Positions 5,197 through 63,960 of a stretch of 64,000 nucleotides of DNA are shown in pieces (the first letter of the stretch is position 1; each line of letters starts with the position of its first letter). A model generated the notes under the pieces. It worked only from the letters and a program-made list of their open reading frames with translations, had not been told where the DNA came from and searched no databases. The translations under genes and the position numbers were made by a program. Source of the DNA: Nannobrachium achirus (taxonomy: Eukaryota > Chordata > Actinopteri > Myctophiformes > Myctophidae). The DNA is taken from positions 29,996,055 through 30,060,054 of the forward strand of contig OY997649.1 in the NCBI GenBank assembly GCA_963921795.1, read 5' to 3'.

Positions 5197-5363
5197 CAGT
5201 GGTTCTTACTCTGGCGTCCCTGCAACAATCATATTTGAACTGGGGACCCCCCACCCTGATAAGCACTTAGACTGTAGGAGTTGATTCCGTTCCACAGATA
5301 AATATTGTGAAACTAGCCGATCTACAAGCTCAAACTCCCAGACTCAAAGGTTGAGAACCACTG
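5197..5363. mobile_element. short hAT-type MITE (CAGTGGTTCT family)
   Basis: The ends CAGTGGTTCTTACTCTGG and CAAAGGTTGAGAACCACTG are inverted repeats. Flanks gagtagag and gactacag agree at 6 of 8 positions, as expected for an aged 8-bp duplication. A half copy of the GATCTACAAGC hairpin lies at 5309-5333. Confidence 0.65.
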
Positions 5364-5767
5364 GACTACAGTAATGCTCAGAAACAGAAGTACTTGCCAC
5401 TGTGTTTGTTACATTGTACTGTGTTTACTGTGTTACAAATGGCAGGTTCACACAGCACTCCATACTGTGTACATTATATTTCTTACAAGTAAAAACAGAA
5501 AAGAAGGAAAATCAAATGTATTGAATCTATTTTATTATCTATTATGACAAGGATCATAGAAATGTTCACATCTCTATGCATTTGTTATGTATAATACAAT
5601 ATAATGATGCCAGGGTAAGAAGACGTCGACTCTCCACTTGCGACGACTCTCCAGGACACTCCAAACGATACCGCAGTGCCTGCAGTGAGAAGAAGAAAAT
5701 ACTGTAACATGTTGCATTGTCTTTGTCACACAAACGGTTCATCGCCATGGCAGCTTATCGTGTACAT

Positions 5768-6147
5768 CAGGGTCTGCAACCTTTTACAAATGAAAAGTGC
5801 CATGGTTTTATTTTTTTAGATAGTGTGCCATGTCAACATGAATTTTAATGACAAGCCATCATAAGTGTGGACATTTTGATTGGAAGGACATAACAATCAT
5901 TAGACTCTGAGCAATAAGTCACTTATCTCCCAGACTCCCTCCCCAGTCAGAGTTCATAGCTTTAATGAATGTAGAATTATATGCAGGATGTCATTTGCTG
6001 CAAATTAGGTGACTTAATTTAATTTACCATGTTTAAAATATATATTTGAAATAAAAATCCTGTCTCACACTTCTGCCAGTGTGCCAGTGATCACCCCCCC
6101 CCCCCTGTGCCAATGTTGGCACTCGTGCCTAAGGTTGCCTAGCCCTG
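5768..6147. mobile_element. hAT-like MITE (CAGGGTCTGCAACC ends)
   Basis: The terminal inverted repeats CAGGGTCTGCAACCTT and AAGGTTGCCTAGCCCTG enclose AT-rich sequence and a C run at 6096-6106. No clean target duplication is visible, so the superfamily is inferred from the termini. Confidence 0.6.
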
Positions 6148-6369
6148 GTTTTTGTCATGGACATACAAATATTAAATATGACCAGAGACAGATCTGCTAG
6201 CCCTAAATATTAGCCTACTAGTGCTGTTCTCAGTGTGTTGAGGGACCTTCAGTTGAAGATGGTTCAAATGGATCACAGGTCTATTTTCTGAGAGCAGTGG
6301 TGTAAGCAGTGCTTGTAAAATGTTGAGGCTTTTGTACTTTGAATAATTTCCAGCTTTCTGTACTGGTAC

Positions 6370-6790
6370 TTGACTCGAGCTCGAATCCAAATATAGTACT
6401 TGTACACCATTACAATCATTTGAAAACTTGAGTTACTTTGCACATAAATGATTATATTATAAAACCTAATTAATCAACTTTAGCCCTATTTTATATCCAG
6501 GCTATTTGAAAATAGACGATCTACAAGCTCACAATGTGTTGATGCGATGTGTTGTGAGTTTGTGGATCTGCCATTTTCAAACATTTTGTACTTTTAAAGT
6601 ATATTTTGATGCCAATACTTTAGTACTTTTACTTCTTACAGAACGTTTTCTATATTGCAGTATTGATAGCCTACTTTTACTCAAGTATCTTAGTCCTTTT
6701 TCCATCTCTGTCAGAGTGTAGACCTACAAATGGGACCAAATAGACCCATAGGAGGTACTGGAAAATAAAAGTTTTGAGAGCCACTGTACT
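6370..6790. repeat. AAGTAC-rich teleost interspersed repeat with hairpin
   Basis: Pieces such as GTACTTTTAAAGTATATTTT and GATGCCAATACTTTAGTAC recur near 8525, 26800, 53935 and 57270. The GATCTACAAGC hairpin (6508-6579) sits within it. Non-coding. Confidence 0.6.
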
Positions 6791-7370
6791 AGTGGACTCC
6801 TAATGTGAAATACATAGTAAAATCAGTGCCATCATACATATTTTAAAGTAAACTTAGGCCTACAGACTTTACATTCTGTAATTGGGATTAATATAGGAAT
6901 GTGCATGCCAGGACACATTGATGATGACACTCACATACACAAATAAATTATACATGAATGAAACATACCATTGGGTCTCGGTTGTCTCTTCCAGTTCAAC
7001 TTGGGGATCCTAGCAGCATGGAGCAGTAGTCACAACAAACGGGCAGAATAACTTGGGTGCAGAGAATGGTCCTATGACAGTGTGTATGATGTTAGCTTAG
7101 TGGAGTCCCAGCTGGCAGAGAGACGCCTCGTCTTTTCTCTCTGGTTCACGTCGCTGCTTTTTTTTTTTTTTTCTTCCTTCTTCTAATGTAATGCATAGCC
7201 TACTCCAGTTCATATAAAAAGTAGTTCTACCGAAGATTCTGCCAGCAAGTCCCTATGTCAGTAGAAAACATGTCTGAAACAAGTAACAACCATACTGTTG
7301 TTGCTAACTAGCGTTCACGCTACGGCAACCACACCGGGTCAAATCCTACTGTAGTTTCTGCAGCTACAAC

Positions 7371-7444
7371 GGCCTCCCACCACGTACGTCATAGCCAGGC
7401 GTTCCATTGGCCGAATCAGTCTATGACGTACGTGGTAGTAAGGC
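7371..7444. repeat. hairpin with ACGTACGTCATAG arms
   Basis: CCACGTACGTCATAG at 7378-7393 is inverted as CTATGACGTACGTGG about 26 bases later, and the outer GGCC also pairs. It lies in the subterminal part of the 5.4-kb TTAA insert. Confidence 0.7.
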
Positions 7445-8824
7445 CCCCTACTGTCCACAGAACAGTAATGTAAGGAAATAGACGCGTTTTAGCATGAACG
7501 TAGTTGACTAAAAGAACACAGACTTGGTTGAAAACCGGCGAACCACTCCTTTAAGTATCATGCAATACTGCAATGTCAGTGGAAGTCTTGTATTCAAAAT
7601 GTAGGATACTTGAGTACAAGTATAAAAAGTATTTGTATTAAAATGTACCAAAAGCAGAAAGTACGCATTATGCAGAACTTAATGTAACCAAGGTGTTCAA
7701 ATAAGTGTATTGATTGTAGGCATTTTCCAAAATCTTGTGGTATTTCACTGCTACATATCGTTCTAAATATATGCTTTCTTGTCATTTAGTACAATGAATG
7801 TGTTACCGTGTCTCTAGAAATGTGCTCATTATTGGTGAAGATACTAACTGTAATTCTCAAAGACTCGCATTGGTTCATTCAGCACATCGTTTTTGCTCTG
7901 TTTCATTTGATATTAAAATGCAACTCGAATTAATCTACTGTGTGGACACTGATCAGATGACAGGAAGAAGCAGCTCATCAATGAATGTACTTTGTGTTGC
8001 TTTTGTAAATTGTGTAGGGTACGATATTTTCATGACTTCACACCAAAGCCCATATCATGGTCATAGAGTTAAATCATTGACAACTTGCATACTCGTTCAG
8101 TTCATATGTTAATGCAGATGGTATGCAGATGGTGTGACACATCACCTACTACAGCCTACAACGATGCCCAGGGCAACACTGCATATTGTCTATAAATGGC
8201 TCACAGTTTAAATAACGTACGGTTTATTTGGACAATCATCTGTAACAGATGAAGTATAATTAAATACGACGTGATTAACGTTTGTTTGACATCCTCATCA
8301 CAATTACATTGGATGCATCGCGTTGATTAAAGTGAATGGCTGCTATAGTTTTGCTAGTTTTCATCACCTAATCACCTTCCTTTCATAACCTAATCTCTAC
8401 GTTTAGAATTGAAAGAAAAATAATGTTAATGTTAGTATGAAGCTAATTATAAAGCTTAAATGGATGATGATGTCAACAATGACTTGTGAAAATCAAAGAA
8501 TGATAACCGATCTACAAGCAATCATACAAACATTTTGTACTTTGATGCCAATACTTTTGTACTTTTACTCAAGTATAGACCTCTCTTTTCTTCTGTTTCA
8601 TTTATCACAAGCAGGCTGGCCACAGGCACCGGCTCAGTGTGAAGGAATGGTGCTCCCTGCTGGACAAAATATTTCATTACAGCAGTACAGGTCTGGCTCC
8701 CAATCATGAGCTCGGTGACCATGTGACATGGACAGCCAATCGGCAAATAGGTCCCCTAGGTCCCCTGAATGTCTCAGGACAATGTAATCTGTTTAAAGAG
8801 CTGGTCCTGCTGACCAGCTAAAAA

Positions 8825-9850
8825 CTCCCCATCAGACTAAAAGCCCATTAGTCTGACGGCCCATTGTCCAGACTACAAAAGCCCCCTGCCCAAATATACA
8901 CACTCCCTAGAATTTTTCACGATTCAAGATTTTTATTTGTTACATCTCATATACGAGTACACGAGTAAATATCCTTGGTATCAGTTCCGGATGGTGCTGC
9001 ATGGTATAGAAGGCAACCGAGTGCAAAGCAGTTGCACGTGCGGAAGATACCATAGCACCAGGTGTTGAAATCAGCCCAGCCCCTGCCCAGCGGAAGATAG
9101 GGCCCTGGGGTGGCACGTTTGCCAAAAATGGCAGATCTACAAGTTCATAATCATGACATTGATTTGAATCGCCCAGCCCTATGTTTTGTATTTTGTGAAA
9201 TACACCATTTCATTCAAAATACAAATTTGACATTTCTAGCCAACAGGCAGGCACGCACTGATATTAAGATACTAGGGGCAAAAGACGACAGAGGTAGCCT
9301 AATCGGAACACCTAACCATGAATAATGTCCGACAATAAATGGCAGGGCTCATCAACATCAGGAAATCTCTCCATCAAAGCATAGCAGATTTAATCCACAA
9401 CAGTATTGTCAGTGAGTATTGTAGCCCAGATCATGCCGTGTGCCTAGATAAAAAGAAGTCAAAGGTCCAACCATCCGTCCTCTCCCTCTCACAGTGTGAT
9501 ATCATCTGAGAAGTGCAGTCTGAGTCATTCTCTGACACACACATGTAGAGCTTTAAAAATAGAACCAACTGGATAAGAGCACAAACAGTGTTACTCAGGA
9601 AAGTAATATGTTACTTATTATATATTACTCCTTAAAAAGTAATAATATCATCATTTATTTTACATCACCAGCAATATGGTATAATATTACTGTTTTGGCA
9701 GAGTAATCCCTTACACTACTCGTTACTGGGTAAAGTAATACTATTACAGTAATATATTACAAGTAACTAATTACTGCCCAACAATGAGCATAAAGATGTA
9801 CTACCATGCACATAAAAATACATACATACGGTAGCAACATCTGTTGCCAC
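8825..9850. other. non-coding stretch with hairpin remnant
   Basis: No convincing exon. A half hairpin (ggcagatctacaag) lies at 9121-9150 and short TATTAC-rich repeats at 9600-9770. Confidence 0.5.
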
Positions 9851-9921
9851 AAACACACACACACACGCGTCGCACACACACGCACGCACGCACGCACACA
9901 CACACACACGCATGCGCACGT

Positions 9922-9993
<72 letters not shown>
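9851..9993. repeat. (CA)n with CGCA interruptions
   Basis: A mixed AC/CGCACG tract followed by a pure (AC)n run of about 35 units. Confidence 0.95.
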
Positions 9994-9995
<2 letters not shown>

Positions 9996-10747
9996 CTCCT
10001 AGCCATGGCATTGTCTTAGCACACAGTCACACACAAATAAATGCACACTTGCATACACATGTAGGTACAGTATGTCTGTATACAAACCCTTAAAGACAGA
10101 AATATAACAGAAGCAGAGATGTCACCTACAAAAAGTTAGGATGTATCATTTCATGGTTAATTAATACCAGATTAATTGGGAGCTAATTGCATGGTAATTT
10201 GATTAATGAAGAACCAGTTGTATGTGGCAGTTTGATGATGGCAGTGAATTGTGATGTGCTATTAAAAAGAAGCAGGATCGGTGACTGCGTTTCTTTTTGG
10301 ATTTGCCTTTTATTTATTCAAAGCTATACAATACATACTCAGGGGTTAAAGTTCTCAGTCCTGGGGACTGATTTCAGTCTTGAGGATTCCATAGGAGCTA
10401 TTTCTGAGATCAGTGCAGATCCGCAAAATAATAAACTATAACTAAAAAGCATTTTTTATTTCAAGATATGAGTATTTGCATTGGCCAGACTAGCATAGAA
10501 TACAACAGAACTTCAGAAGATACTTCTATAAATTGGCACACACACAGAACCTCAGGGAAACACCTCAAATATTGGTGTACGCTGCGCAAGCCACGTTTCA
10601 AAAATCACATATTTGGGACATGGTCTGAAAATAAATTTCAGTCTTGGGATTTCTTTTGGCTTTAACCCCTGCATACTGTAGACAGAGAAATACAACACAA
10701 ACTGTTTATGCTATTATATAACAACACTGCAACACGATGTTGTGATA

Positions 10748-11475: not shown

Positions 11476-11542
11476 CTAAGCATATGACAACACTGTATTA
11501 ATACAGTATACAACTATGCGATGATGTGGTGTCATATACTGT

Positions 11543-11556
11543 ACTTTAAGACTGAA

Positions 11557-11608
<52 letters not shown>
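11543..11608. repeat. (GACA)n microsatellite
   Basis: About 15 perfect AGAC units. Confidence 0.95.
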
Positions 11609-11609
<1 letters not shown>

Positions 11610-11734
11610 TGTATGTATTGAATTCAGGTGTTGTAGCAGCTAAAGGCAAATGTAAAATATCTGCAAGGAACTGTTCATGTGCATATAAGAAATTTCCAAT
11701 GTATTTTGGCTAGGACTCCGTTACACATTCATAG

Positions 11735-12134
11735 TAGGGATGGGACGATAAGCGATATTATCGTATATTAATTTGTGATAAAAAACACTCACGATAATCG
11801 TATCGTGGAGATTTCATTTATCGTGATATCGTCCTCCGTCATGCACTGGGATCAATTCACCTTTTATTTGCTGAGCTGCATATCCGGTACCACTTAAACC
11901 CTCTAGAATTGGTAAAAGGTATTTATAATATACGTAATTACTAATTGATAGTCTTTTTTTTTTCACTCTCTATCAAATGTCTTTGCCAAAAAATAGCTGA
12001 TCTACAAGCTCACAGAGCTTGTAGATCTGCTATTTTTTGGCAAATGTTCCGCCCAAGGATAATGGATTTTGATTATCACAATTTCTTTTGTCACAATAAT
12101 CGTGATATGACATTTTCATATCGTCCCATCCCTA
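11735..12134. mobile_element. hAT-type MITE, TAGGGATGGG family, copy 1
   Basis: Inverted ends TAGGGATGGGACGATA and TATCGTCCCATCCCTA. The exact 8-bp target duplication ATTCATAG lies at 11727-11734 and 12135-12142. The interior contains the GATCTACAAGC hairpin at 11982-12044. At the point where copy 2 (48598-49488) has a TTAA insertion, this copy has the empty site. Confidence 0.9.
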
Positions 12135-12142
12135 ATTCATAG

Positions 12143-18302: not shown

Positions 18303-18377
18303 GCCCCACTCCGTTAAGAACAGTTATGCAGCATGCCATAGCTACTGCTGTGTGTAATTGGAGAGTCCAAGTCTTTT

Positions 18378-18690
18378 CTTGGTCTACAAGCTCACAACAT
18401 GTCACAACGCGTTGTGAGTTTGTAGATTGGCTATTTTCAAGTAGCCTAGTTATAAAATAGGTCTAAAGTGGTTAATGTATGTTTTATAATATTATTTATA
18501 ATTCATATATCAAAGTAACAAGTAACTAAAGTTTTCAAATAATTGTAGTGGAGTAAAAGTACAATATTTGGATCCGAGATAGAAGTAAAAGTATTGGAAA
18601 TTGGAAATACTCAAGTAAAATACAAATATCTCAAAATTGTACTTAAGGAACGTACTTAAGTAAATGTACTTAAGTACTGTACTGCTGAGA
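18378..18690. repeat. hairpin plus AAGTAC-rich interspersed repeat
   Basis: A GATCTACAAGC-type hairpin (18378-18438) is followed by AAGTA-rich repeat with GATCCGAGAT and TACTTAAGTAAATGTACTT. Nearly the same sequence recurs at 57330-57545. Confidence 0.65.
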
Positions 18691-24883: not shown

Positions 24884-25363
24884 CAGGGGTGTTGCACCAA
24901 ATACTGGGTCCTAGGTACAAGGATTCACTGCAGGGCCCCCATGAATTATCTTCATAGGGGGAGGGAGTTTAACCCATTTAGACTGGGAACGCATTATTAC
25001 ACATTATTTTGTGCTTTAACTATTGAAAAATAGCAGATGTACAAGCTCACAGCGCGGCACCGAGTGCCTCGCTGCGAGCTTGTAGATCTGCTATTTTTTT
25101 AAATCGTGAAAAGTCTTTTTTTGAAAAAAACGTTTTTTGGACCCCCAAAAGTATATGTATTTGGCCGTGGACCCCCATCTCAAAATATTTAGTTCCAGGG
25201 ACCACCCAGAAGTGAAATTTGAGTTACAAATGTTCGCGTAAAAAATGCATATATACAGTATTCAAAGATTTGCACACATTTTCACGACTTTTCAAAAATA
25301 GCAGATCTACAAGCTCGCAGCGCGGCACTCGGGCTGCCCCTGGTAGTACTTGTGGCGCCCCTG
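24884..25363. mobile_element. hAT-type MITE, CAGGGGTGT family, copy 1, with duplicated right junction
   Basis: The left end CAGGGGTGTTGCACC is preceded by GTAGTACT (24876-24883). The right side ends GCCCCTG plus GTAGTACT twice, at 25343-25350 and 25364-25371. Two GATCTACAAGC hairpins lie inside (25025-25100, and a half copy at 25293-25333). It matches 50104-50606. Confidence 0.85.
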
Positions 25364-25810: not shown

Positions 25811-25858
25811 CATGGCACTGAGTGCCACGCTGCGAGCTTGTAGATCTGCTATTTTTGT
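25811..25858. repeat. half copy of the GATCTACAAGC hairpin
   Basis: Reads GCGAGCTTGTAGATCTGC then TATTTTTG. Only the right arm is well kept. Confidence 0.7.
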
Positions 25859-25973
25859 AAAATCTAGAACATTTTTGCAAATTTCAAATTGTGCAAAAAT
25901 CCGAAATTTTTTAACTAAAATCTTTGCTTCTGTAGGGTTCTTGACAGGAACACCTTTGAGAACCACTGAAACA

Positions 25974-26242
25974 TATCGTCTTTGTCGGGTGGAAACCTTG
26001 TGTCTCCAAGTTTCAAATGTGTACAGTATGTTCTTTCGCGAAGTAAAGCCCTGCTTCATCATACAAGGCCGTCGCACAAAAGTTGTGAAAACAGCCGATC
26101 TACAAGCACACAACGCCTCGCACCGCGAGGCGTTGTGTGCTTGTAGATCGGCTGTTTTCACTAGTTTAAATCATTTTTAAAATGATAAATTCAAAATGAA
26201 CGGTTTTGGACATACAAGGTTTTCACCCGACAACGACGATAT
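25974..26242. mobile_element. foldback MITE, ATATCGTC family, copy 1
   Basis: Ends ATATCGTCTTTGTCGGGTGG and, inverted, CACCCGACAACGACGATAT. Its centre is the longest perfect GATCTACAAGC hairpin of the window (26087-26160, arms of about 35 bp). Related copies are at 29038-29263 and 43011-43213. Confidence 0.75.
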
Positions 26243-26295
26243 GTTTTTCAGAAAACTGTTAGGATTTTAGAAGACATTTTTAGAATCAATTTCAG

Positions 26296-27031: not shown

Positions 27032-27070
27032 TTGAAAAAGGCAGATCTACAAGTAGATCTGGTATTTTCA
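27032..27070. repeat. minimal GATCTACAAGC hairpin
   Basis: GCAGATCTACAAGTAGATCTGG: the two arms meet almost without a loop. Confidence 0.75.
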
Positions 27071-29000: not shown

Positions 29001-29037
29001 ACGCGCGCGTGCGTGCGTGAGAGGAGAGGAATGCTGC

Positions 29038-29263
29038 ATATCGTTGTTGTCGCGTGGAAACCTTGTATGTCCGAAACAGTTCCTTTTGTATTCATAATTC
29101 ATAAAAATGATTTAAAATAGTGAAAATAGCTGATCTACAAGCATGTGCTTCTAGATCTGCTATTTTCACTAGTTTTGTGCGACACTATTGTATGATGAAG
29201 CAGCAAAATATACAAATCTGAAACTTGGAGATACGAGATTTCTGCCCGACAGTGACGGTATAA
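29038..29263. mobile_element. foldback MITE, ATATCGTC family, copy 2
   Basis: Diverged relative of 25974-26242, with a short central hairpin at 29121-29168 (AGCTGATCTACAAGCATG) whose arms extend into GTGAAAAT/ATTTTCAC. Confidence 0.65.
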
Positions 29264-34959: not shown

Positions 34960-35910
34960 TTAACTCACAATCCTTTTAATGCCACTATTTTTTTTAACTT
35001 GCGATTAATGCAGCTGATGTTTGAGCCTCGGTGCGCTCCGTAGTATAGAGAGTGAGGAAGCGAATGCGCTGACAACTCGCATCCTATGCTCGCAACAAAT
35101 ACCGAAGCGTTGAAACGGCACATCTGCAGACAGCGCAAGCCCCAGACACACAAGCTCCCAAGAACAGGAGCGCTCCAACTTGTGCTGTACACGAGCACAT
35201 AGTAGCCTACTAGCCTACGTTCGTTATACAGTGCCCCCCAGACCCCCGCACCAACACACTAACAGTGACCACCAAATTCATGCAACAACGGCCAGAGAAC
35301 CCACATAGCAAACAGGTTTGGCCCAAATCCGGCTGTTATGGCCCACATCCGGCTGTTCTGGCCCAACTCCGGCTGAAATCTGGCAGGTCTGGCTGACTGT
35401 GGCTTGTGTGCCACACATCTCCAACAAGCCATCAGTACTCTCTACATCATAACAGCTGGGTTTCTCATAGTGAACTAGGGTGCCCAATAACACCAGTCCA
35501 GGGTGCCTCAGAATATTTTGATAATATTTAGAATGTATCAATATTACTTCAGTTAAACCAATTTAGACCCTCTAATGCCTCATGCTTGCTTTGTAAAACA
35601 CCCGAGTTGCACTGTACTTGAGTTATATTTATACACCAACTCTCTTCACCAAAAATAGCCGATCTACAAGATCTTGTAGCATCTTGTAATGAGCTTGTAA
35701 ATCTGCTACATTTGGTGAATATCCCCTTAGAATAGGGATGTTGGGGTTTAGTGATTGCTATTTGTCTACTCCCATGTTGATATGAGTATTAATATCAGTT
35801 TTAGGTAGATTTAGAACAAATACAAAATATGCGATTAATTGCGATTAATCGTGCGATTAACTATGGACAATCATGCGATTAATGGGATTAAAATTTTTAA
35901 TCGACTGACA
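34960..35910. mobile_element. probable hAT-type element remnant (ATTAATCG / GACAGCCCT end)
   Basis: The right end has repeated GCGATTAAT units and finishes CGACTGACAGCCCTAATA, a terminus common in fish. The left boundary lies in AT repeats and is not resolved. A GATCTACAAGC hairpin with extended arms is at 35649-35718. Confidence 0.5.
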
Positions 35911-42739: not shown

Positions 42740-43010
42740 TCAGTAACCAATGACATCATCCATCGGTAGGCTGTCTGATAATTACAAGATTACAAATTTG
42801 GCTTCTAGTTCAGTTACTATTATCTTGGAATCTCTTCTGAACTGTCAGCCCACCAATGAGACACGAGAAGAGTTTGTTTTATCTTATAATGAGTAGTTAA
42901 AGTGCTCCTTTAAGTATGGAAAAGGATTAATATCAGGATCTGACATGCATGTGGCTCTTGGTTTTAGAACTATGAAATGTCTCTGGCATAATATTATATT
43001 TTTGCATATC

Positions 43011-43213
43011 GTCACTGTCGGGCAGAAACCCTGTATCTCCAAGTTTCAAAGTAAAGCCCTGCTACATCATACAAGACTGTCGCACAAAACTAGTGAAAAT
43101 AGCAGATCTACAAGCACAACGCCACGCAGCGCGGTATTTTTAATGATTTTTAAAATGATAAATACTGTACAAAACGGTTTTGGACAAGGTTTCTACCCGA
43201 CACCAACGATATT
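43011..43213. mobile_element. foldback MITE, ATATCGTC family, copy 3
   Basis: Ends CATATCGTCACTGTCGGGC and CCGACACCAACGATAT. A partly lost hairpin is at 43095-43142. The next MITE starts immediately after its right end. Confidence 0.65.
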
Positions 43214-45112: not shown

Positions 45113-45417
45113 AGGACCAGGTCACCTCTGGGACAACCAGATCTTATTTTATTGTTGTGTGGGACACAATCAACACAATCCTGAGTTATTTTTTGTGTTC
45201 AATCTGTGTTTTTAGATATTTTAATATTTCAGCCGATTTCAGCATGCTACAACTGGTCATATGATGCAAAATGCATCATATGACCAGTTGTAGCATGCTG
45301 AAATACTAACATATCTAAAAACACAGATTGAACACAAAAGATAATTCAGGATTGTGTTGATCGTGTCCCACACAACAATAAAATAAGATCTGGTTGTCCC
45401 AGAGGTGACCTGGTCCT
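45113..45417. mobile_element. TTAA foldback MITE (AGGACCAGGTCACC)
   Basis: TTAA at 45109-45112 and 45418-45421. The arms AGGACCAGGTCACCTCTGGG run nearly perfectly to the centre, which contains CATATGATGCAAAATGCATC. Almost the whole element is one hairpin, so it is probably young. Confidence 0.9.
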
Positions 45418-46473: not shown

Positions 46474-47180
46474 TACCAGTAAGACTCCCGGGAGATAAGC
46501 GACCGTTGGTCGCTTATCTCCACAAATATCACAACCTCCACCTCTCACGTCATACGGGTAGCCATAGTTACACCTGGAATGTTGAATCTCCATATATGGA
46601 GATAACCTACGCATCACACAAAGTCTGACCTCACCAGCCCATACTTGGGCATGGACGACTTATATCTCCATATACGGAGATGGCCATATATGGAGATACG
46701 ATGACATCACAGAGTCCACAGCTGATGATGTGGCGTGATGTCATACAATACACAAACAAGCCCTATATAAAGGGGCAATTCTCACCAGGGAAGAGAGCAT
46801 TGCCTGGAATGTTGAATCTCCATATATGGAGATAACCTACGCATCACACAAAGTCTGACCTCACCAGCCCATACTTGGGCATGGACGACTTATATCTCCA
46901 TATACGGAGATGGCCATATATGGAGATACGATGACATCACAGAGTCCACAGCTGATGATGTGGCGTGATGTCATACAATAAACAAACAAGCCCTATATAC
47001 TGATGCGATACGATGACATCACAGAGTCCACAGCTGATGATGTGGCGTGATGTCATACAATAAACAAACAAGCCCTATATACTGATGCGGAGATATGAGC
47101 AGGGCAAAGGTGTGACGTGTGACGTGTGACCGACCGACGGACGGCCGGTGGAGGTTTTCATTGCGACCGTAAGGTCGCAG
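46474..47180 (+). repeat. GGTCGC-hairpin repeat, copy B
   Basis: Starts TACCAGTAAGACTCCC and ends in the GCGACCGTAAGGTCGC hairpin at 47163-47179, shared with copy C. It contains a 230-bp tandem duplication (from 46572 and 46802) and an 82-bp one (46925 and 47007). Confidence 0.75.
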
Positions 47181-48157
47181 TTTAGTATGAAAACCTCCAC
47201 CGGCCGTCCGTCGGTCACACGTGCGGTCCCGCACGTCACACGTGCGGTCGACGTGTGATGAGGTCACGATGAGTCATCTATGCCCAAATATAGATTTCTA
47301 GGTCAGATGGCCCATAGAGTTTGTGATGTCAAACCTAGCAACCCAATATAAACAAACCTGATGTCAGACCTGAAGTATCCTTTTATACCCATATATGGAG
47401 ATACAGAGATCTCCATATATGGGCATATTAGAAAGCCCATATATGGGCATATACGGATGACATCAGGGATATCCATATATGGGCATAAAAGGGACAAGGG
47501 CTTACAGTTAAGAGATCTCCATATATGGGCATATCAGAAAGCCCATATATGTTCATATACTGATGACATCAGGAATATCCATATATGGGCATAAAAGGGA
47601 CAAGGACTTACAGTTAAGAGATCTCCATATATGGGCATAAAGGGACAAGGACTGTTACAGTAGATATAGAGATGTCCATATATGGGCATAAATGAACAAG
47701 GACTGACAAACACTGAGATCTCCATATAACCTATGGGAATATAAGGGACGAGGACTGTCAGCTTGTAGACCTATTTTCTAAATATTGTTGTACATTAAAA
47801 ACTTGAAATGGGTCGTTCTGCATAGTACTTGGGATTTGTTGATGTAAATGTTCACATAGAGTGTAATAATTGGTAAAACAAACTTTTGGCCTATTTGTGG
47901 AGATAAGCGACCAACGGTCGCTTATCTCCCGATTAGGGAGTCTTACTGGTAGTAAACTGCTCCCTGACGGTCGCAATAAACTCTAAGGGGTACCACACTC
48001 TATGGGTTTGACGGTCTGACATCACGCTCTGACATCACTGTGATGTCAGGGGAGCCACACTAACAGAATCCCTTTTATGCCCTTATATGGAGATCCCTGA
48101 TGTCAACAATATTAAGCCCATATCTAACAGGATTTCATATTGAATGCCCATATATGG
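46590..48157. repeat. array of 13 CCATATATGG palindromes
   Basis: Exact CCATATATGG at 46590, 46684, 46820, 46914, 47389, 47413, 47437, 47473, 47519, 47579, 47624, 47676 and 48148, plus near variants. Each is flanked by GAGAT/ATCTC or GGGCAT/ATGCCC. The ten bases fit the CArG consensus CC(A/T)6GG bound by SRF/MADS factors; binding is inference. Confidence 0.8.
47160..47951 (-). repeat. GGTCGC-hairpin repeat, copy C, head-to-head with copy B
   Basis: Inverted relative to copy B; its far end is GATTAGGGAGTCTTACTGGT. The junction 47125-47215 is a near-perfect palindrome around the GCGACC/GGTCGC hairpin. A further solo end (CTGACGGTCGCAATAAAC) follows at 47963. Confidence 0.75.
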
Positions 48158-48597: not shown

Positions 48598-49488
48598 TAG
48601 GGATGGGACGATACGCGATATTATCGTTTATCATGATAAAAAAACACTCACGATAATCGTATTGTGGAGATTTAATTTATCGTGATATCGTCCTCCGTCA
48701 TACACTGGGATCAATTCACCTTTTATTTGCCGAGCTGCATATCCGGTAACACTTAAAGTTATACTATGTAACTTTTTTTATAAAACATATCTTAAAATTG
48801 TCCTAACTATTAAATCGCTAAAGATTTAGAACCCCCACTCTGTTAATTTCAGCCCCAAAAGCCTTTTCTTTATATGTTTTCTACATAGCTGTGACAGGGG
48901 CTGTATTTCCCGGCAAAATGATGTCATCTCCCACATGATACACTACCGGCCAATCACAGCGCAGATCATACACCACCGGCCAATCACAGCGAGTCTTGCT
49001 GTCTCTAAAGGAAGTAGCTTCCCTCAGCAACTGTGTTTACATTGGTGAAGGAATCTTGCTTGCTACTCCCTCAATCCTGGTCTAAAAATGACGGGAGACG
49101 GCTCTACGGATGCGTATCGGCGAGGCGGAGGTGCTCGCGGCGGCCGCGGTGGTCCACGGATCCCCGTTCCGGTGGTCCGCGGCGACTCCGGCCGAAAAAA
49201 GCAATACCGCTACTGACCACTAGTTGAGCAGCTTCCACAGTACAGCTTTAAACCCTCTATAATTGGTAAAAGGTACTTATAATATATGTACTTGATACAG
49301 TCTTTTTTCACTCTCTATCAAATGTCTTTGCCAAAAAATAGAAATAGCTTGTAGTTGTAGATCTGCTATTTTTTGGCAAATGTTCCCCCCCAGGATGATG
49401 GATTTTGATTATCACGATAATATTGTAAATCGCGATTTATTTTGTGCCAATAATCGTGATATGACATTTTCATATCGTCCCATCCCTA
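48598..49488. mobile_element. hAT-type MITE, TAGGGATGGG family, copy 2
   Basis: Ends as in copy 1. The exact 8-bp target duplication ATTTTGCC is at 48590-48597 and 49489-49496. Interrupted by a 495-bp TTAA element. A hairpin remnant lies at 49333-49379 at the same relative place as in copy 1. Confidence 0.9.
48757..49251. mobile_element. 495-bp TTAA insertion inside a hAT MITE
   Basis: TTAA at 48753-48756 and 49248-49251; copy 1 of the host MITE reads straight through one TTAA (near 11895). The ends AGTTATACTATGTAACT and, inverted, AGCTGTACTGTGGAAGCT are similar. The interior has duplicated CCGGCCAATCACAGCG and a CpG-rich block at 49090-49200 unlike its neighbours. Confidence 0.9.
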
Positions 49489-49551: not shown

Positions 49552-49774
49552 CAGTGGTTCTTAACCCGTGGGTCTGGATTTCTAAAGTGACAATTTAAGG
49601 ATTTTTTTATACTTCTAAAATGTCAAATTAAACATTGGCCAAATTGTCAATTATTTGGGCAGAAATTGTGAAAATAGCCAATCTACATGCTCGCAACGCA
49701 AGGCGTCGTGAGCATGTAGATCTGCTATTTTCACAATAGAACCGTGTCATACAAAATGTAATGCCTTACCACTG
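49552..49774. mobile_element. hAT-type MITE (CAGTGGTTCTTAACC) with hairpin
   Basis: Exact duplication TCTTATGG at 49544-49551 and 49775-49782. Ends CAGTGGTTCTTAACCCG and CCTTACCACTG. A GATCTACA-type hairpin occupies 49669-49733, arms extending to ATTGTGAAAAT/ATTTTCACAAT. Confidence 0.88.
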
Positions 49775-50103: not shown

Positions 50104-50606
50104 CAGGGGTGTCGCACCACATTCTGGGCCCTGGGTACAAGGATTCACTCACATTTTGTGCTTTAACTATTGAAAAATAGCAGATATACAAGCTCACAGC
50201 GCGGCACCGAGTGCCGCGCTGCGAGCTTGTAGATCTGCTATTTTTGAAAAATCGTGAAAGTTTGTCTGAATATTTCAAATCCTTCTAAGGTTTTTTTGAA
50301 AAAACTAAGTTTCTATGTCAGTGGTGCTCAAATATTTTCATGTGAAGGACCCCCAAAATGATATGTATTTGGCCACGGACCCCCATCTCAAAATATTTCG
50401 TTCCAGGGACCCCCCAGAAGCAAAATTTGAGGTACAAATGTTCGCTTAAAGATTTGCACACATTTTCACAACTTTTCAAAAATAGCAGATCTACAAGCTC
50501 GCATATATCTGCTATTTTTCAATAGCTAAAGTATAAAATAATTAAGGCCCCTCCACCTTGGGCCCTAGTAACTCAGTCCCACTTCCCCCCCAGTGTGACG
50601 CCCCTG
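50104..50606. mobile_element. hAT-type MITE, CAGGGGTGT family, copy 2, with two hairpins
   Basis: Exact duplication GTATCCAG at 50096-50103 and 50607-50614. Ends CAGGGGTGTCGCACC and GTGTGACGCCCCTG. Hairpins at 50171-50247 and 50473-50520 sit near opposite ends. A nested CAGTGGTGCTCAAA-like end is at about 50321. Confidence 0.9.
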
Positions 50607-53661: not shown

Positions 53662-55181
53662 TTTTTAGCTGGTCAGCAGGACCAGCTCTTTAAACAGATT
53701 ACATTGTCCTGAGACATTCAGGGGACCTAGGGGACCTATTTGCCGATTGGCTGTCCATGTCACATGGTCACCGAGCTCATGATTGGGAGCCAGACCTGTA
53801 CTGCTGTAATGAAATATTTTGTCCAGCAGGGAGCACCATTCCTTCACACTGAGCCGGTGCCTGTGGCCAGCCTGCTTGTGATAAATGAAACAGAAGAAAA
53901 GAGAGGTCTATACTTGAGTAAAAGTACAAAAGTATTGGCATCAAAGTACAAAATGTTTGTATGATTGCTTGTAGATCGGTTATCATTCTTTGATTTTCAC
54001 AAGTCATTGTTGACATCATCATCCATTTAAGCTTTATAATTAGCTTCATACTAACATTAACATTATTTTTCTTTCAATTCTAAACGTAGAGATTAGGTTA
54101 TGAAAGGAAGGTGATTAGGTGATGAAAACTAGCAAAACTATAGCAGCCATTCACTTTAATCAACGCGATGCATCCAATGTAATTGTGATGAGGATGTCAA
54201 ACAAACGTTAATCACGTCGTATTTAATTATACTTCATCTGTTACAGATGATTGTCCAAATAAACCGTACGTTATTTAAACTGTGAGCCATTTATAGACAA
54301 TATGCAGTGTTGCCCTGGGCATCGTTGTAGGCTGTAGTAGGTGATGTGTCACACCATCTGCATACCATCTGCATTAACATATGAACTGAACGAGTATGCA
54401 AGTTGTCAATGATTTAACTCTATGACCATGATATGGGCTTTGGTGTGAAGTCATGAAAATATCGTACCCTACACAATTTACAAAAGCAACACAAAGTACA
54501 TTCATTGATGAGCTGCTTCTTCCTGTCATCTGATCAGTGTCCACACAGTAGATTAATTCGAGTTGCATTTTAATATCAAATGAAACAGAGCAAAAACGAT
54601 GTGCTGAATGAACCAATGCGAGTCTTTGAGAATTACAGTTAGTATCTTCACCAATAATGAGCACATTTCTAGAGACACGGTAACACATTCATTGTACTAA
54701 ATGACAAGAAAGCATATATTTAGAACGATATGTAGCAGTGAAATACCACAAGATTTTGGAAAATGCCTACAATCAATACACTTATTTGAACACCTTGGTT
54801 ACATTAAGTTCTGCATAATGCGTACTTTCTGCTTTTGGTACATTTTAATACAAATACTTTTTATACTTGTACTCAAGTATCCTACATTTTGAATACAAGA
54901 CTTCCACTGACATTGCAGTATTGCATGATACTTAAGTAAAGAATGCGAGTACTTTTCCCACTACTGCCTAATAAGCATGCTAGTTTTAGTACAATCAGAC
55001 ATCACAGATAGATTTATAGAGTAATAGGCTCTAAGGCAACTGCAAACTTAGCAGGAGTCCTCCAGGCTATGGGGGAAAGTAGCTGTTGGAAAAAGTACTC
55101 AAATGTTTTACACTTGTTTTTTTTAAAGTATCTTAAAAGTATCAATACTGCACTGTAGATGTACTCAGTTATAAGTAAAAG

Positions 55182-55252
<71 letters not shown>

Positions 55253-55554
55253 GGGGGGGGGGGAGTGACAAAATTCATAGATCTAGAACACAGACTTCAT
55301 AGATATAGAACACAGAATATGTACAGTACAGTACAGTGAGGTACAGTATACAGTACAGTAAAGTACAGTAAGGTAATACGCAGTTATTACTGTTGTTTGA
55401 GCACGCCCGAGTTTTTTCAAAACTTTTTTTTTCCAAAAAACTTTTTTTTCCAAAACTTTTTTTTTTTTTCAAAAAACATTTTTTTTTTTTTTTTCAAAAA
55501 ACTTTTTTTTTTCCATCTGACCAGCTTATATATTGACTGTGTCAATTCTTGTTT
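53662..55554 (-). repeat. right arm of large inverted duplication (uninterrupted)
   Basis: Inverted copy of 1429-8824 lacking the 5.4-kb insert: at about 54930-54937 it reads through a single TTAA. It contains the (AC)n tract 55183-55247, a G run at 55251-55262, a TACTG-rich stretch, poly-T blocks 55425-55514, and AAGTA-rich repeat pieces near 53915-53960 and 54850-55170. Confidence 0.9.
53964..53988. repeat. half hairpin, mirrored copy of 8500-8520
   Basis: GCTTGTAGATCGGTTATC; belongs to the duplicated arm. Confidence 0.7.
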
Positions 55555-56044
55555 GCAAAGAGTTCAGTCAAAGCGTAGTTGGGAACAGTGCTTTTGTTGT
55601 TGGGGCATGTTCTGAATCGATGTTCCAAATCCAACAAACACAATGGTCTGCTACGCTATGCTCTGCAGCAGCCCCCCTCCCCGCAGCCTTTCAGCGTCAG
55701 ACAGCAGAGAACGATACAGTCCAAGATGATAATACAATTTAAAACTGAGAACTTTATGAGTTCACAATATCTCCACTGGAGAGGTGTCACCTGCATATGC
55801 TAGTAGTGATATTTCATGTAGTCAAAAAATTGATGGGTGGCTTTACATGAAACATGGTGGAAATGAACAGTAGGCTGCCCAAAAGAGATGATTAACTATT
55901 GGGTCGAAAATGTACTATAGTCGTAAGTTATAGCATAAACCCAATTTCCAAACATTCCAATTTCTGACTTTTTGGCCAAATATCAGATCAATACCATAGT
56001 TTTAAAACTTCAGATTTTTTGCCAATTGTCAAATATAAATACTA

Positions 56045-57220: not shown

Positions 57221-57224
57221 AAAT

Positions 57225-57545: not shown

Positions 57546-57549
57546 TTTA

Positions 57550-59530
57550 CCCCACTGACCCCAACCCCAGCTAAGACGTACAGTAAACAAAATACTGTGT
57601 GAATATGGTCAATTTATCTAAGCTAATTTGAAGCGTACCTCGTTAAACCACATCTGACCCAGTGTCTATACACGAAGAAATGGATGCATAAATTAAGATT
57701 AACCCAGAGAGCTACCCTACTGTTTGAACTAAAGACCCATCTGATCCATGCATGTGAGCACTAGTGGCTTTGATGTTGTTTGAAGAGGGGATTTAAAGCA
57801 CATCAGTAGCAAAATATAATTACATCTTCAGTCTCAGCTGTGGCCTTAAGGACTTCTTTATTTTTGGATTTTAAACTTGGATTAACCTCAGTATGTGATT
57901 CAAAAGTGTGAGCGGGCCAAAGAGCTTGATGAAAATGGAGATGGAACGGAACGCCACCGTGCCAGTAAGAAGAGAAGTTTGTATAAGGGTTGTTTGGGGG
58001 GTTGCAGACAAGTAAATGTTTAAAGTCAGCATAAAGGACACAATGATAACAACTCAGAAACATTTTGAAAAGGGAATCACTATGGGAAACATCCTCTCTA
58101 CCTGAGGCTTGTTGTCGTCATCACCATATTGCCTAAACATTTCATTGCACATGAGACCCTAACTGTACTGTAGAGTGAATGTTCAGGTAAGTACTGGGTA
58201 CTGTACTAATTAGCATTCAGCACACAATAATTGTAATACTATTTGGATAGTAGAGTGGAGTTCCTCTCTTCTGCAACTCTCCAAAGCAGCAGGGGTCTTC
58301 AACAGTATTCTATTGGTATTTACAGAATTAATTAATTATTTATTACATGTTACCATGTTAATCACATGAATTAAATACAAATACTGATGGTAGAATGATC
58401 TCATGTAGACCCATACATCATGACATCATGAATTGAATACATAGGACTACAATGGAAAAAATGACCTTTTTGTGTTATCCTTTTAGCGAAGATGTATGAC
58501 TGTACCTCGTGCTGTTTGCATTTCTGTCTAATAAAGTATTCAACCAATCGATCAAAAAACATCCCCACAACCATTTATTTTCGGATAGATAACACTGACA
58601 GCATCACATTGGAGTAGTATTGTTCATTAACCTTATTTCTGGAAGGCTATGACTTTGTAATTGAATATTAGAATATCATTTGGTTCTAAATATCCACAGT
58701 TTGACAAACTAGACATGGCTATGTTCTGGAGACTTAATTCTATATTGTGAAATAGACAATCTACCCGTAAATACCTGTTTAAAAACAGAAAACATTCTGA
58801 TCTGGTCTATAAGGTCTGACTCAACATTTATGTTTGAACAAAAAGGGAGAAGGAAGTATAGTATCAGGAAGAATGGACGGCAATATTGAAATACCAGTTC
58901 ACAGAAATGGAGGGAGTTTGGTTGGAAAATCTTCTAATTTATTATAACTTCTCAGAAATCTGAGAGGCTGGCTGTCACAGGGGAGCCCAACTTTAAATGC
59001 AACAATGGATTTTTTTTTAAATTGTTCATTATACATTGGAAGAATGTTCTGGGTTTATGCCTAGGCCAGACTTTATGTGCACATTTTGTTAACTGTGTTA
59101 AATAAGAACAGTAAGAACAAATATTCTGAAATGTGTGAAAAACATGAATGTGCTCTGTATGATGTACTGTATACATAACAGTATCTGGATATATCGAATC
59201 AAATATACAAGTGGTGCATAGTGGGCACACTGGGCAGTCTCATAATGAGTCCTTTTAGCTCATGTTATTTCAGAGACTCTGGAGGCCCTCCAGTCAGATA
59301 TTCTGGTAGTCTAAAGGGCTCTGCACTCAGGCGCGATTTTGCAATGCTGTGCGGAATCCACGCTGCGGATCCGAAAAGGAGTCATAAAAGGAATGATGAG
59401 TTTTTACCGCATGCGAAATGATGCACAGATCGAACTGGGTTCGATTGGGAAAAAAACGCACTGCCGCAGACACTTGCCGCACGGCAAATTCGGAGCAGGT
59501 GTGCATGAGGTCATAGAGAATCATTGTTTT
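57550..59530. other. no gene seen
   Basis: A solo GGGGTCTTCAACAG end at about 58290 and a weak hairpin relic (AATAGACAATCTACCC) at 58750. No exon. Confidence 0.4.
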
Positions 59531-59537
59531 CTTTATT

Positions 59538-60399
59538 GCGACCGTAGGTCGCACTTTACTATCAAAACCACCACAAAGTGTAAGTAACTCCGTCCGTCCG
59601 TCCGTCCCTCCGTCTGTCTGTCAGTCTGTCTGTCACACCTCACACGTCACACTTTTTCTCTGCTTATATCTCCGCAACCGTTGCCCCGATCCATGCCAAA
59701 TTTTGCACACACGTTCCTTGGCTGCCAAACTACAACCTCCAAGGACCCCCGGAGCTCCAGGGACCCCCAGGTCCCTGGGGGACCCCCAGATGTAAAAAAT
59801 GACCAAATGCGCAAACATGACCAAATGACCACCCCAACGGGGCTGCTCACGGGGAATTCCCGGGGACCGCCGACTCCTGGTGCTCCAGAACGGATGCAAA
59901 AGTGGTGGCGCCCCCAGTGGAGGACCCCCTACACTGCAGCTCACATAAAATGCTGTAACTCCGGCTAGGAGCGACCGGGACAGCCGGGCCCGGTACCTAT
60001 TCGTCCGCCTTGCCGGCGCGGAGACCCCACCCCTCATTTCTCACATGGCCCTCTTCTAGCGCCACCATGAGGCCGATTCTTGCAAAACACATTTTTGGAC
60101 ACTGCTCCTACAATTTTCGCCCTAAAATCACGCAAATCGGTACACAGTATGTCTACACTCATCCCATCAACATGAATCTGTCCCATATAGCGCCACCTCC
60201 AGGCCGATTTTTAAAAACACATTTTTGGACACTGCTCCTACAGATTTTGCCCTAAAATCACGAAAATCACTACACAGTATGTCTACACTCATGTCATCAA
60301 CATGGATCAGGAAGATTTTGGCAAAACACATTTTTGCCCTATTTGTGGAGATAAGTGACCTACGGTCGCTTATCTCCCGATTAGGGAGCCTTACTGGTA
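59538..60399 (-). repeat. GGTCGC-hairpin repeat, copy D
   Basis: Begins TGCGACCGTAGGTCGCA and ends GATTAGGGAGCCTTACTGG, inverted relative to copy A. Two tandem internal units (60075-60180 and 60200-60320) contain CACATTTTTGGACACTGCTC. (CCGT)/(CTGT) tract at 59590-59632. Confidence 0.75.
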
Positions 60400-60409
60400 A
60401 TAATTAATG

Positions 60410-60960
60410 TGTCTGTTTTTTTCCGTGCGGAAAATCGCGCCTGTCTGCAAAGCCTTTAACTCAGTGACAGTGAGTGAAAGGCAACATCTTTATAAAAGAA
60501 GGGAGAGGTGGTACCTGCTGCCCTATATATGCTTAGACAGAGAAAATCACACACCGCTGCGGCGCTCGCTTTGTCCTTGAGGTGACAAGATAACCTGATG
60601 GTTAGAGATATTGAGCCATGGCCAAAAGGTCACAAGTTGAATCCCTTCATCTGCTTTTCCATCAACAGCCATGCGTCCTGTCATAGTGTCCTTGAACAGG
60701 ATGATCAAAAACCATACGCGCTCAATCATTGTAAATTGCTCAAGGTGGGCATATCATCTAAAAGGGCACACACAAAAAAATAATGAACTTGTGTGTCAAC
60801 TTGTGATTGGTAAGCTAGCGTTAGATAGCAGTGGTGGAAGTACTGTAGGAGCTGAGTTGAAAGGTAAAGTATAGTACATGCTGCTCTAAACACTGATAGT
60901 GGTAAATGTCTTGCTCAGAGACTTCGATTCAAGATTCTATTTGTTACATCTTAAGAGTAT
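60410..60960. other. no gene seen
   Basis: No exon or clear element. Confidence 0.4.
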
Positions 60961-60971
60961 ATAAGATAGCG

Positions 60972-61315
60972 GCAGGGGCAGCAGTGGCTCAGGAGGTAGA
61001 GCGGCCTCTTGGGAACCAGTTCGATCCCGGGTGCAATTATGGGTTCAGTGTCTTCCTCAAGGACATTTCGACACTAACTCTGGGAGTTAGTGTTGAAGTG
61101 TCCTTGGGAGTTAGTGTCAAAGTGTCCTTGGGCAAGACACTGAACCCCTAATTGCTCGCAGGTTGGTGCCTTAAACTGCCTTGCGTGATTTCCTTCGCCA
61201 TCGGTGTATGAATGGGTGAATAAGCGCCTTTATCCAAGGCGCTTTGCAATGATTGTGGTGTGTGTTGTAAATAACAGCGCCTTCATCCAAGGCGCTGTAT
61301 AAATGCACCATTATT
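60972..61315 (+). mobile_element. tRNA-derived SINE with L2-like tail
   Basis: A-box-like GTGGCTCAGGAGGTAGAGCG, B-box-like AGTTCGATCCCGG, then GGGCAAGACACTGAACCCC, GTATGAATGGGTGAATAAG and an AAGGCGCTTTGCAATG tail. A short internal duplication (GGGAGTTAGTGT) and a second tail copy (AAGGCGCTGTATAAATGCAC) are present. V-SINE-like. Confidence 0.8.
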
Positions 61316-61319
61316 TACA

Positions 61320-61913
61320 CAAGAGTAGAATTCTTTGTTTTGGTTCTACAGCAATGTAGCAGCAAAAATAACTGTGGAATAGTGGTGTGATATCTTTTAG
61401 TTTTTTGTTCAAAAGTGATAGTAATCATTGCTATATAGCTTCAGGAACAATGGACAGGTGGCGCCACCTTGAAAGATTTTCGCTATTACTTTCAATGGGG
61501 TGACATCACATTCACTTTCTAGATAGTGTTTCTTCAGGGGTCTTTAGTAAAAATATATATATATAAATTTCAACTCAGAATACAGAATACTATTTGGCAC
61601 CTTACATTTTATAGTGTTATAGTTGTTTTGTTTAATCACTTCCAATTTCACTTGTTTATCCTGTATCCTGTACGCGATTACTGTGTTTATAGGAGATGAG
61701 ATGTCAGCTGTGGCTTGTGATTGGCTGAACCGGAGGTATGGAGCGCTCCGCTGTGTTCACTTGGGCCGCCCGGCGGTGCCGAAAGTCGGGGGCGACGAAT
61801 TGGATAAAATTGGTATGCTGGCCTGAAAATTTACAGCTATTTGCCATTTACTGCAGTTCCGGAGATGGGGAGATCCGCTAATACTGAGAAAACATTCTAT
61901 ATAGCAATGATTG
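61320..61913. other. no gene seen
   Basis: Short GC-rich piece at 61735-61800 with no recognisable exon. Confidence 0.4.
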
Positions 61914-62028
61914 CTTTACAGCAAGGGTCTTCAACAGGGAGTCCGGGACCCCTAGGGGGTCCTCAGAGTTACTACAGGGGGGCCGCCAAATCTTTGTGTG
62001 ATAGCTAGGATCATGTTTTTTACATTAA

Positions 62029-62913
62029 AGGACAACTCCGCCCTAAATCACTTCTAGGCTCATTTTCCTACTTATATTGATCCAAAAAGACTGTCCATGG
62101 GGTCTATTAGGCAGAAATGCACCTTTTGTCCAGTTTCCCCAGCAGAACCCAGCAGCTCTCATAGCATAGAGTGGAGCCTATAAGCCTATCGCTTTTACAC
62201 TATTTGTTGTGGTCAAAAGTGTTTTTATTTTTCATGAATGTGGTACTAGTTGTCATTACAAACACATCCATGTCATCGTTGTCCCACACAAGCCATCACA
62301 CTCTGCTAAATAGATGTTATGCTTTTATGTGCTTTGCCAAGTCCCGGAAAAGATGCCCTGTGATTGGCCAGTGCAGTCACTTTGATTGGCACTTGTGCCG
62401 AATGATCACCTCAAAACATTATTTATGAGATTGTGGTGGCTTGTGTGGGACAACCAAGGCATGAATCTGTAATGACAACTAGTAGTAAGGCCGCAATCAC
62501 ACATATGCGTGAGACATCTTCTCCGTATCGTTTGAGAATGAGGGGGGGAGGGGGAGATCCAATTTCTATGTATGTCACGTGGTTTCATGTCATTGCCGTG
62601 TCTTGCAAGAGACAAAAAACCACGTGACCTTCATTGAGAATGAATTGGACCCATCCTCCCCCCCTCATTCGCAGACGATACGGACACGATAGCTGAAAAA
62701 AAAATGACACATCCTTAAAAAAGAAATTCACTTTTGAACACAACAAATAGTGTTAAAGCGATAGGCTCCACTCTATGCTATGACAGCTGCTGCGTTCTGC
62801 TGGGGAAACAGGACAACAGGGGCATTTCTGCCTAATAGACCCCATGGACAGTCTTTTGGGATCATAATAAGTAGGAAAATTAGCCTAGAAGTGATTTAGG
62901 GTGGAGTTGTCCT
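62029..62913. mobile_element. TTAA foldback MITE (AGGACAACTCC family), copy 2
   Basis: TTAA at 62025-62028 and 62914-62917. The outer arms AGGACAACTCCGCCCTAAAT are inverted at the right. A second nested foldback lies at about 62490-62690 (CGTATCG and GGGGGG/CCCCCC arms). Confidence 0.88.
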
Positions 62914-62966
62914 TTAACCATTTGAACCCTAGCATCCCTATTTGTGGAAGGAACATTAGCCAACAA

Positions 62967-63041
62967 TAAATAGCCGATCTACAAGCTTACAACGCGTCAC
63001 GCTACGAGGCGTTGTAAGCTTGTAGATCGTCTATTTTTGGC
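62967..63041. repeat. full GATCTACAAGC hairpin
   Basis: AATAGCCGATCTACAAGC and GCTTGTAGATCGTCTATT arms; inner pair CTTACAACGC/GCGTTGTAAG differs from the consensus in both arms. Confidence 0.85.
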
Positions 63042-63729
63042 AAAGAGGTTTGTAGAGGGAAAAGAAGAGCAGAGCAGCAAGTATTTGATGGTGCAAGTGG
63101 TTAAATGTCTAAAAATACACATTGCTCCAACATGACGACAGTGCTGTCAAACAAGTCTAAGAAATATATGATTATAATTTTTTTTAAATCTGCAACACAA
63201 TTGTATACTATATGTAGTGGGGGTCCCTGCTTCATCTCTCTCTCAGCTAAGGGGTCCTTGGCCTGAAAACATTGAAGGCCCCTGATTTACAGAGTATTTT
63301 AACAAATATCACATAATCACTGACAGAACAATGTGTGCATATTAATATAGTATCCCCCATTCCCCCTCCGCTGCATCACAACATGATCACAACATAATAA
63401 ACCCTGCGTGAGCCAAGAGTTGACCCTCTGACCTTCCAACTCCCAGATGGCGCCTCTACCCACCTACGGCTGCCCCCTATGTAAATAACTATAGCCTATA
63501 CATACATTAAGATCAATCAAGGGTACAGCCAGAGAAACACGTATGACATATTTCCACTGAAGTACCCTAATTACTTGAAGTGGGTTGTCGCCTATTAAAA
63601 ACAGTTCAAACCAACAGGGCAAGCCATGTCATGTACCTATTGACATTTGAAAAAGTGCAGCAATCTAGTGTGTGGGCAGACCAAGTGTCCCTGGAGGCAG
63701 ACAGAATGAAAGCAACATGACTCCAATTT

Positions 63730-63960
63730 CCAGTACTTTTACTTCTACTACACTACGGATCCAAATATTGTACTTTTATTGAAAACTTTAGTTATTAGTA
63801 GATTTTGATTATTATTTCCAAACCACATACATTAACTACATCAGCCCTATATATTTTTTTGGGCCATTTCGTCGCTATGCAACACATTGTGAGCTTGCAG
63901 ATCTGCTATTTTCAAAAGATTTTTTACTACTTTTTTTTTTTTTACTTTAGTACTTTTAAG
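63730..63960. repeat. AAGTAC-rich repeat with half hairpin
   Basis: GTACTTTTACTTCTACTACA and GATCCAAATATTGTACTTT; hairpin right arm at 63880-63915. Confidence 0.6.

Follow-up and report, generated by a model that had tools for sequence, protein, structure and literature searches.

Several described systems resemble the dispersed hairpin considered here. Fish carry palindromic or short inverted-repeat miniature inverted-repeat transposable elements (MITEs) such as Angel, which are non-coding, high-copy and hairpin-forming, and are found in teleosts. The terminal repeats of ordinary transposons are kept alike by selection on the active elements. In yeast mitochondria, the GC clusters are a family of dispersed short hairpins that is reportedly mobile DNA. 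The repetitive hairpin elements of sponge mitochondria are also held to be mobile, according to the available parts of their description (PMC2800124), and the available text on template-switch mutations states that these can create and mend hairpins (PMC8794818). The closest precedent, as far as the comparison goes, appears to be the coral CMITEs, which are presented in the accessible parts of the source as families whose ends differ around a common conserved internal stretch of about 75 bases, the origin of the core being unexplained there (PMC2872659). The subject of this work is a hairpin repeat in the myctophid fish Nannobrachium achirus. It was studied from a stretch of 64,000 nucleotides, referred to as the window (C12:29996055-30060054, contig OY997649.1), in a genome of 1,658,514,493 bp.

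The hairpin is probably a palindromic module of about 63 bp that is common to many MITE-like families. Its copies are likely to be explained by descent from founders, with a shared palindromic core, matched arms in each founder and independent decay of the copies thereafter. Most matched differences between arms were inherited from founders; once in place, a copy appears to mutate independently in each of its arms. The exact 16-base arm TAGCNGATCTACAAGC occurs 274,621 times genome-wide (137,256 + 137,365), the reversed control giving 0, and 34,169 genomic loci hold both core arms perfect with a spacer of 2 to 32 bases. Additionally, 41 two-arm hairpins and 39 single arms were present in 195,850 bp of arbitrarily placed stretches. 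The span from TAGC to GCTA was exactly 63 bases in 60 of 127 sampled hairpins, 64 in 6, shorter in 54 and longer in 7; loss of the hairpin centre is common.

Angel-type MITEs are similar by their general description, but the present hairpin forms a module within several distinct hosts. The sponge and yeast elements, as far as the available descriptions go, are likewise dispersed short hairpins, but they are mitochondrial, whereas the present repeat is nuclear and sits inside larger repeats. With the CMITEs, the repeat shares an arrangement of several small families with different ends and one conserved internal core, and here, too, the families resemble one another more in the internal region than in the remainder of the element. 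However, the core in this genome is a palindrome whose arms differ between families in step, and its copy number is far higher, with 274,621 exact arms compared with the estimate of 1,600 CMITEs for one coral in the accessible parts of that paper (PMC2872659). A literature search with an 11-base arm sequence and its complement matched 14 papers, and none of the 13 listed concerned repeats by its title, and in topic searches this repeat was unreported.

Flank clustering brought 185 of 242 flanks into 28 clusters, one of which lumped several hosts, and the alignments place the hairpin at one fixed position in each of at least 10 host repeats. The hosts were named A, B, C, D, E, F, H1, H3, H6, H7, H8 and H9, some from two or three copies; because C, E and H1 look related by eye, there are fewer independent hosts than host names. 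The flank clusters differ around a common core, and conservation across the host families is higher in this core than in the flanks. Hosts A and B are about 200-350 bp long, and B bears one hairpin near each end. The terminal inverted repeats of host A score 33.5 in the copy near 26 kb and 18.5 in the copy near 29 kb, against a shuffled maximum of 15.5. In host F, one of four copies scored above 15.5 (17.0), with flanks longer than those of the shuffled control; the idea that host F is a full palindrome was dropped, as the score supports only that one copy. The hosts are short, non-coding and high in copy number, as MITEs are, and we infer that they are mobile as transposons.

The outer arms of the hairpin are host-specific, pairing over roughly 5 to 15 bases and then stopping in C, H3, H7, H8, H9, E and A. 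In a gapped comparison of 47 representatives, the mean for a representative's own pair was 5.3 versus 3.4 across hosts. Eight of the 47 lay above the cross-host 95% point, and outer-arm pairing is therefore modest on average. At one sampled locus (L038:301-361), similar left-flank sequence stands on both sides of the hairpin, inverted, over about 52 bases (score 28), as though an inverted duplication or exchange had turned around at the hairpin. A late insertion of the hairpin into existing hosts was rejected: among 167 host-flank matches in 339 kb, 136 led to an arm and 17 to a remnant (153 together), and no empty site was identified among the other 14.

Covariation of the arms is strong between families. 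An alignment of 45 gap-free hairpins (44 distinct) of many hosts, chosen from 61 with near copies left out, has both-sided changes in 24 of 42 pairs. The both-sided cells number 175; shuffled alignments gave 86.5, with none of 500 reaching the observed number, and slid controls gave no more than 77. An earlier sequence-only reading of the window had proposed that the arms of the copies change together. This stands between subfamilies, but inside them there is no clear excess; within families, no excess of matched changes was detectable at the sites tested.

The behaviour of single loci was read from a conditional search, in which the left arm was changed at one core site, the rest was canonical and the right partner was left free. 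Match totals are whole, and loci were counted by reading the first 100 matches listed per search (contigs C1-C2, or C1 alone for CA[A]GC and T[A]C); all locus counts given from these searches are among the matches listed. The search GA[T]C gave 660 + 673 matches and 92 loci, of which 84 were one-sided, 7 matched doubles and 1 an unmatched double. For T[A]C there were 1,288 + 1,276 matches and 96 loci (92 one-sided, 3 matched, 1 unmatched), and for G[A]TC 607 + 675 matches and 92 loci (84, 6 and 2), where 16 rows printed without letters were taken as one-sided because no place of theirs occurred on both strands. The three sites sum to 280 loci, with 260 one-sided, 16 matched and 4 unmatched. 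Two subfamilies hold 12 of the 16 matched doubles. All 7 GACC doubles have host F flank motifs, which occur in 0 of 7 comparison loci (6 one-sided and 1 unmatched double) and 3 of 127 sample hairpins, the motifs having been picked after the GACC doubles were seen; 5 of 6 GCTC doubles have one interior in common. Without these two subfamilies, 4 matched and 4 unmatched doubles remain in 268 changed loci. Independence predicts doubles in about 1.0% (GA[T]C) and 1.8% (T[A]C) of changed loci.

The search CA[A]GC, which covers the ACATGC arms, yielded 53 loci: 46 T/T, 1 unmatched double, 4 T/A and 2 G/A. The T/T loci are one big founder family, mostly in host H7 where flanks were seen, and its mid-arm N site fits independence, with CC seen 2 times and expected 1.9 times (43 of 46 loci typed).

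Template switching predicts matched multi-base changes in both arms, as far as the available text describes it (PMC8794818), and an excess of matched doubles at single loci was not found here; at founders the process is possible. The one-sidedness of the counts outside the two subfamilies argues against both frequent rewriting of arms and selection for pairing in resident copies. The sequence-only reading had offered just these two forces, selection on the structure or template switching, and the conditional counts speak against them in resident copies; both are retained as options for founders. A structured RNA gene, or selection at the RNA level, would give covariation across families such as that observed, but it is an extremely improbable source of the pattern, given that a scan of the window against Rfam at gathering scores returned 0 matches and that the arms are independent within families.

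The largest sample group, family B, was aligned as 26 copies (25 distinct). Within columns 8-42, changes on both sides are confined to columns 21 and 31 (3 cells), where the consensus itself is mismatched, and the remaining 11 of 14 both-sided cells lie in the outer columns 1-7. The consensus arms have two mismatches, unpaired in 17 and 19 of the 25 distinct rows; that of GATATAC against GATCTAC is the one retained in 17. Among 22 near-identical locus pairs, which mostly differ on one side, 21 have no matched difference by eye, although these pairs are not independent (six among L002-L005, three among L006-L008 and one within L118). The sequence-only reading had itself named an opposing case, that arms pair only because the copies descend from a few matched founders. 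For individual copies this case holds, by the conditional counts and family B.

A number of observations nevertheless speak against founder descent with independent decay. In the T[A]C search, 4 doubles (3 matched) were found in 96 loci, where about 1.7 were expected. Shuffles of family B favour structure, with 14 both-sided cells versus 8.0 (0 of 500) and a score of 0.051 versus 0.040 (3 of 500). Permutation of the right arms in seven host families (82 hairpins) gave 16 matched doubles versus 8.5 expected (p 0.02). This excess vanished only through the post hoc removal of five rows, one misassigned, one out of register and three from a sub-host, after which 77 hairpins gave 3 matched doubles versus 6.1 expected (p 0.94). 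The 14 of 167 host-flank matches with no hairpin within 75 bases belong here as well, 6 of them being the right flank of D. Additionally, target-site duplications, including the TTAA duplication given for CMITEs in the accessible parts of their source (PMC2872659), and a partner transposase are not established for the MITE-like hosts. Finally, two locus pairs differ in both arms. In L025_218 and L093_25, the difference is matched and lies at a site mismatched in the B consensus. In L026_4104 (T/T) and L079_301 (A/A), on different contigs, the flanks are about 95% alike by eye.

These two pairs, together with the strong covariation across families, are what would be expected if, in resident copies, template switching or hairpin-templated repair continually used one arm to rewrite the other, a process documented for RNA genes and quasi-palindromes in sources that include the available parts of PMC8794818. 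However, L025_218 and L093_25 are each one transition from the family B consensus, and they make up the only matched difference among the 22 close pairs. L079 looks like the changed member of the other pair, because L131 is T/T and the single visible arm of L141 carries T; the centre of L079 is irregular, and it could equally be a conversion by another hairpin or a one-step double change, the two being indistinguishable. A query with the surrounding repeat, host G, scored 40 copies from 302 candidates, and at least 15 of the 20 fetched have a different, unrelated hairpin at that place. Given the equal numbers of matched and unmatched doubles outside the two subfamilies and the persistent mismatch in family B, continual rewriting in resident copies is very unlikely. 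Frequent rewriting of arms was rejected on the conditional counts, the close pairs and family B.

In the window itself, the 11-mer GATCTACAAGC with at most one mismatch has 29 matches, versus a shuffled mean of 0.87 and maximum of 4. There are 32 arms within three mismatches of the 16-mer TAGCNGATCTACAAGC, which pair into 9 two-arm hairpins and leave 14 single arms; the two-arm hairpins become 10 once four mismatches are allowed. The hairpins that had been singled out, with their matched arm differences and outer arms, were all found in place: the ACATGC arms at 49675-49727, the pair GCTTACAA/TTGTAAGC at 62971-63033, the pair AAGCACACA/TGTGTGCTT at 26092-26154, and the paired outer arms TTTGCC/GGCAAA at 11982-12044, TTCACC/GGTGAA at 35645-35719 and ATTGTGA/TCACAAT at 49665-49737. 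The estimate of about 20 copies is about right as a number of loci, of which only about half keep two full arms. The copies are as follows.

5314-5329, + strand: single arm
6513-6573, + strand: two-arm hairpin in host repeat D (TACTTAAGTA-type; host about 6315-6620)
8504-8519, + strand: single arm, with an identical copy at 53967-53982 (- strand), the two being one locus present twice through an exact 1,274 bp inverted duplication
9129-9144, + strand: single arm, outer flank TTTGCCAAAAA
11982-12044, + strand: two-arm hairpin, outer arms TTTGCC/GGCAAA, host repeat C (about 11894-12137)
18376-18433, - strand: two-arm hairpin, host D (about 18383-18642)
25026-25098, + strand: two-arm hairpin, left end of a host B copy (about 25006-25319)
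25299-25314, + strand: single arm with the partner arm missing, right end of the same host B copy (about 25006-25319)
25836-25851, - strand: single arm in B-like sequence
26079-26167, + strand: long near-perfect hairpin with GCACACA arms, host A (25973-26243, terminal inverted repeats ATATCGTC..)
27039-27064, + strand: strongly shortened hairpin, H9-like flank
29114-29175, - strand: two-arm hairpin with the centre deleted, host A (29037-29261)
35645-35719, + strand: two-arm hairpin, outer arms TTCACC/GGTGAA, host E
43100-43115, + strand: single arm with the right arm deleted, host A (43005-43212)
49327-49380, - strand: hairpin remnant, host C, outer arms paired and the inner part of one arm lost
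49665-49737, + strand: two-arm hairpin, ACATGC/GCATGT, host H7
50170-50248, + strand: two-arm hairpin, left end of a host B copy (50153-50503)
50477-50520, + strand: shortened hairpin, right end of the host B copy at 50153-50503
62968-63036, + strand: two-arm hairpin, GCTTACAA arms, host H1-like
63893-63908, - strand: single arm, flank partly host D-like

Under founder descent, many MITE-like families would carry the palindromic core at a fixed place. Each family would have been amplified from a founder with largely paired arms, including a short family-specific stretch outside the core, and this origin would make the families differ from one another in both arms at once. After insertion, the arms of a copy would mutate independently, and the centre would often be lost. 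Founders may have been kept matched only in active lineages, through selection on the ends or through copying of arms at birth or transposition. Copy-level evolution is ordinary in this reading.

One way to match founders is selection on active elements, whose ends or hairpin would be bound by a transposase or host factor, so that arms stay matched in the masters only. The conservation of the core above the flanks across host families is consistent with this, and the logic is that which keeps the terminal repeats of ordinary transposons alike. Set against it are the two consensus mismatches of family B, the many copies without a centre (the 54 of 127 spans shorter than 63), and a family of 64-base hairpins beginning with TAGCTGATCTGCAAGC, which was amplified although only one of its arms had changed (TGC against TAC, in many copies among the T[A]C matches listed). 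We regard such selection as plausible, although somewhat short of probable.

Another way is rare rewriting confined to active lineages, in which fold-back synthesis at a move or at the birth of a family would match the founder, a little host flank included. The founder-level matched states CATGC, GACC, GCTC, CAGC, GCACACA and CAAAACG suggest such an event, as does the host-specific pairing of the outer arms in H3, C, H7 and H9, which ends after a short stretch. Furthermore, no large amplified intermediate towards CATGC was seen: T/A loci number 621 genome-wide (320 + 301), with AAAATAGC on the T arm and mixed interiors, versus roughly 9,000 T/T loci, an estimate from 100 matches listed. However, most copies of C (3 of 5), D (5 of 6) and H3 (4 of 5) have C opposite A at the mid-arm N site, next to sites that are matched, and copying of a whole arm would erase this mismatch. 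Mismatched founders, in B and in the 64-base family, were amplified too. Rare fold-back copying is possible in our judgement, though on the unlikely side. The N-site mismatch is also seen in part of H1, H7 and H8. A stricter version, that arms are copied from each other only during transposition or birth and that the module hops between unrelated MITE families, is doubtful. If it were true, the subfamilies would be a fossil record of transposition-linked hairpin copying, which would spread a little adjacent host sequence into both arms.

The tens of thousands of near-palindrome copies in recognisable hosts represent a large natural test of hairpin arm correction in an animal germ line, and the three core sites sampled show no excess of matched changes outside two subfamilies. 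A repeat alignment can show very strong covariation even where matched change is lacking in the copies themselves, and structure calls from repeats need caution for this reason. The matching of founders and the spread of one core into many families are testable in relatives.

Elsewhere in the sampled loci, a second hairpin with GCTAAGGTATGGCAACATGACTGGTGTCTTGCAC arms and a CG-rich centre, not found in the window, occupies a constant position in a repeat, with CTGAACTGACGCCACTG adjoining (L125-L130, L132, L133, L135-L137, L139 and L142-L144), and its centre lengths vary like those of the main hairpin. A viral or phage source was considered for the window and rejected, as the single IMG/VR match sits in an unrelated coding-looking stretch and was taken as chance; 8 of the window's 22 open frames of at least 120 amino acids gave 0 Pfam matches. 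The exact 1,274 bp inverted duplication joins window positions 7551-8824 and 53662-54935, and a further inverted stretch, 88% identical, joins 1423-2132 and 54932-55560. A tandem repeat cluster with periods of 230, 82, 106 and 51, rich in CCATATATGG-like palindromes, occupies 46573-47759, and a perfect 33 bp inverted repeat with a 3 bp loop, different in sequence from the main hairpin, is located at 45236-45304.

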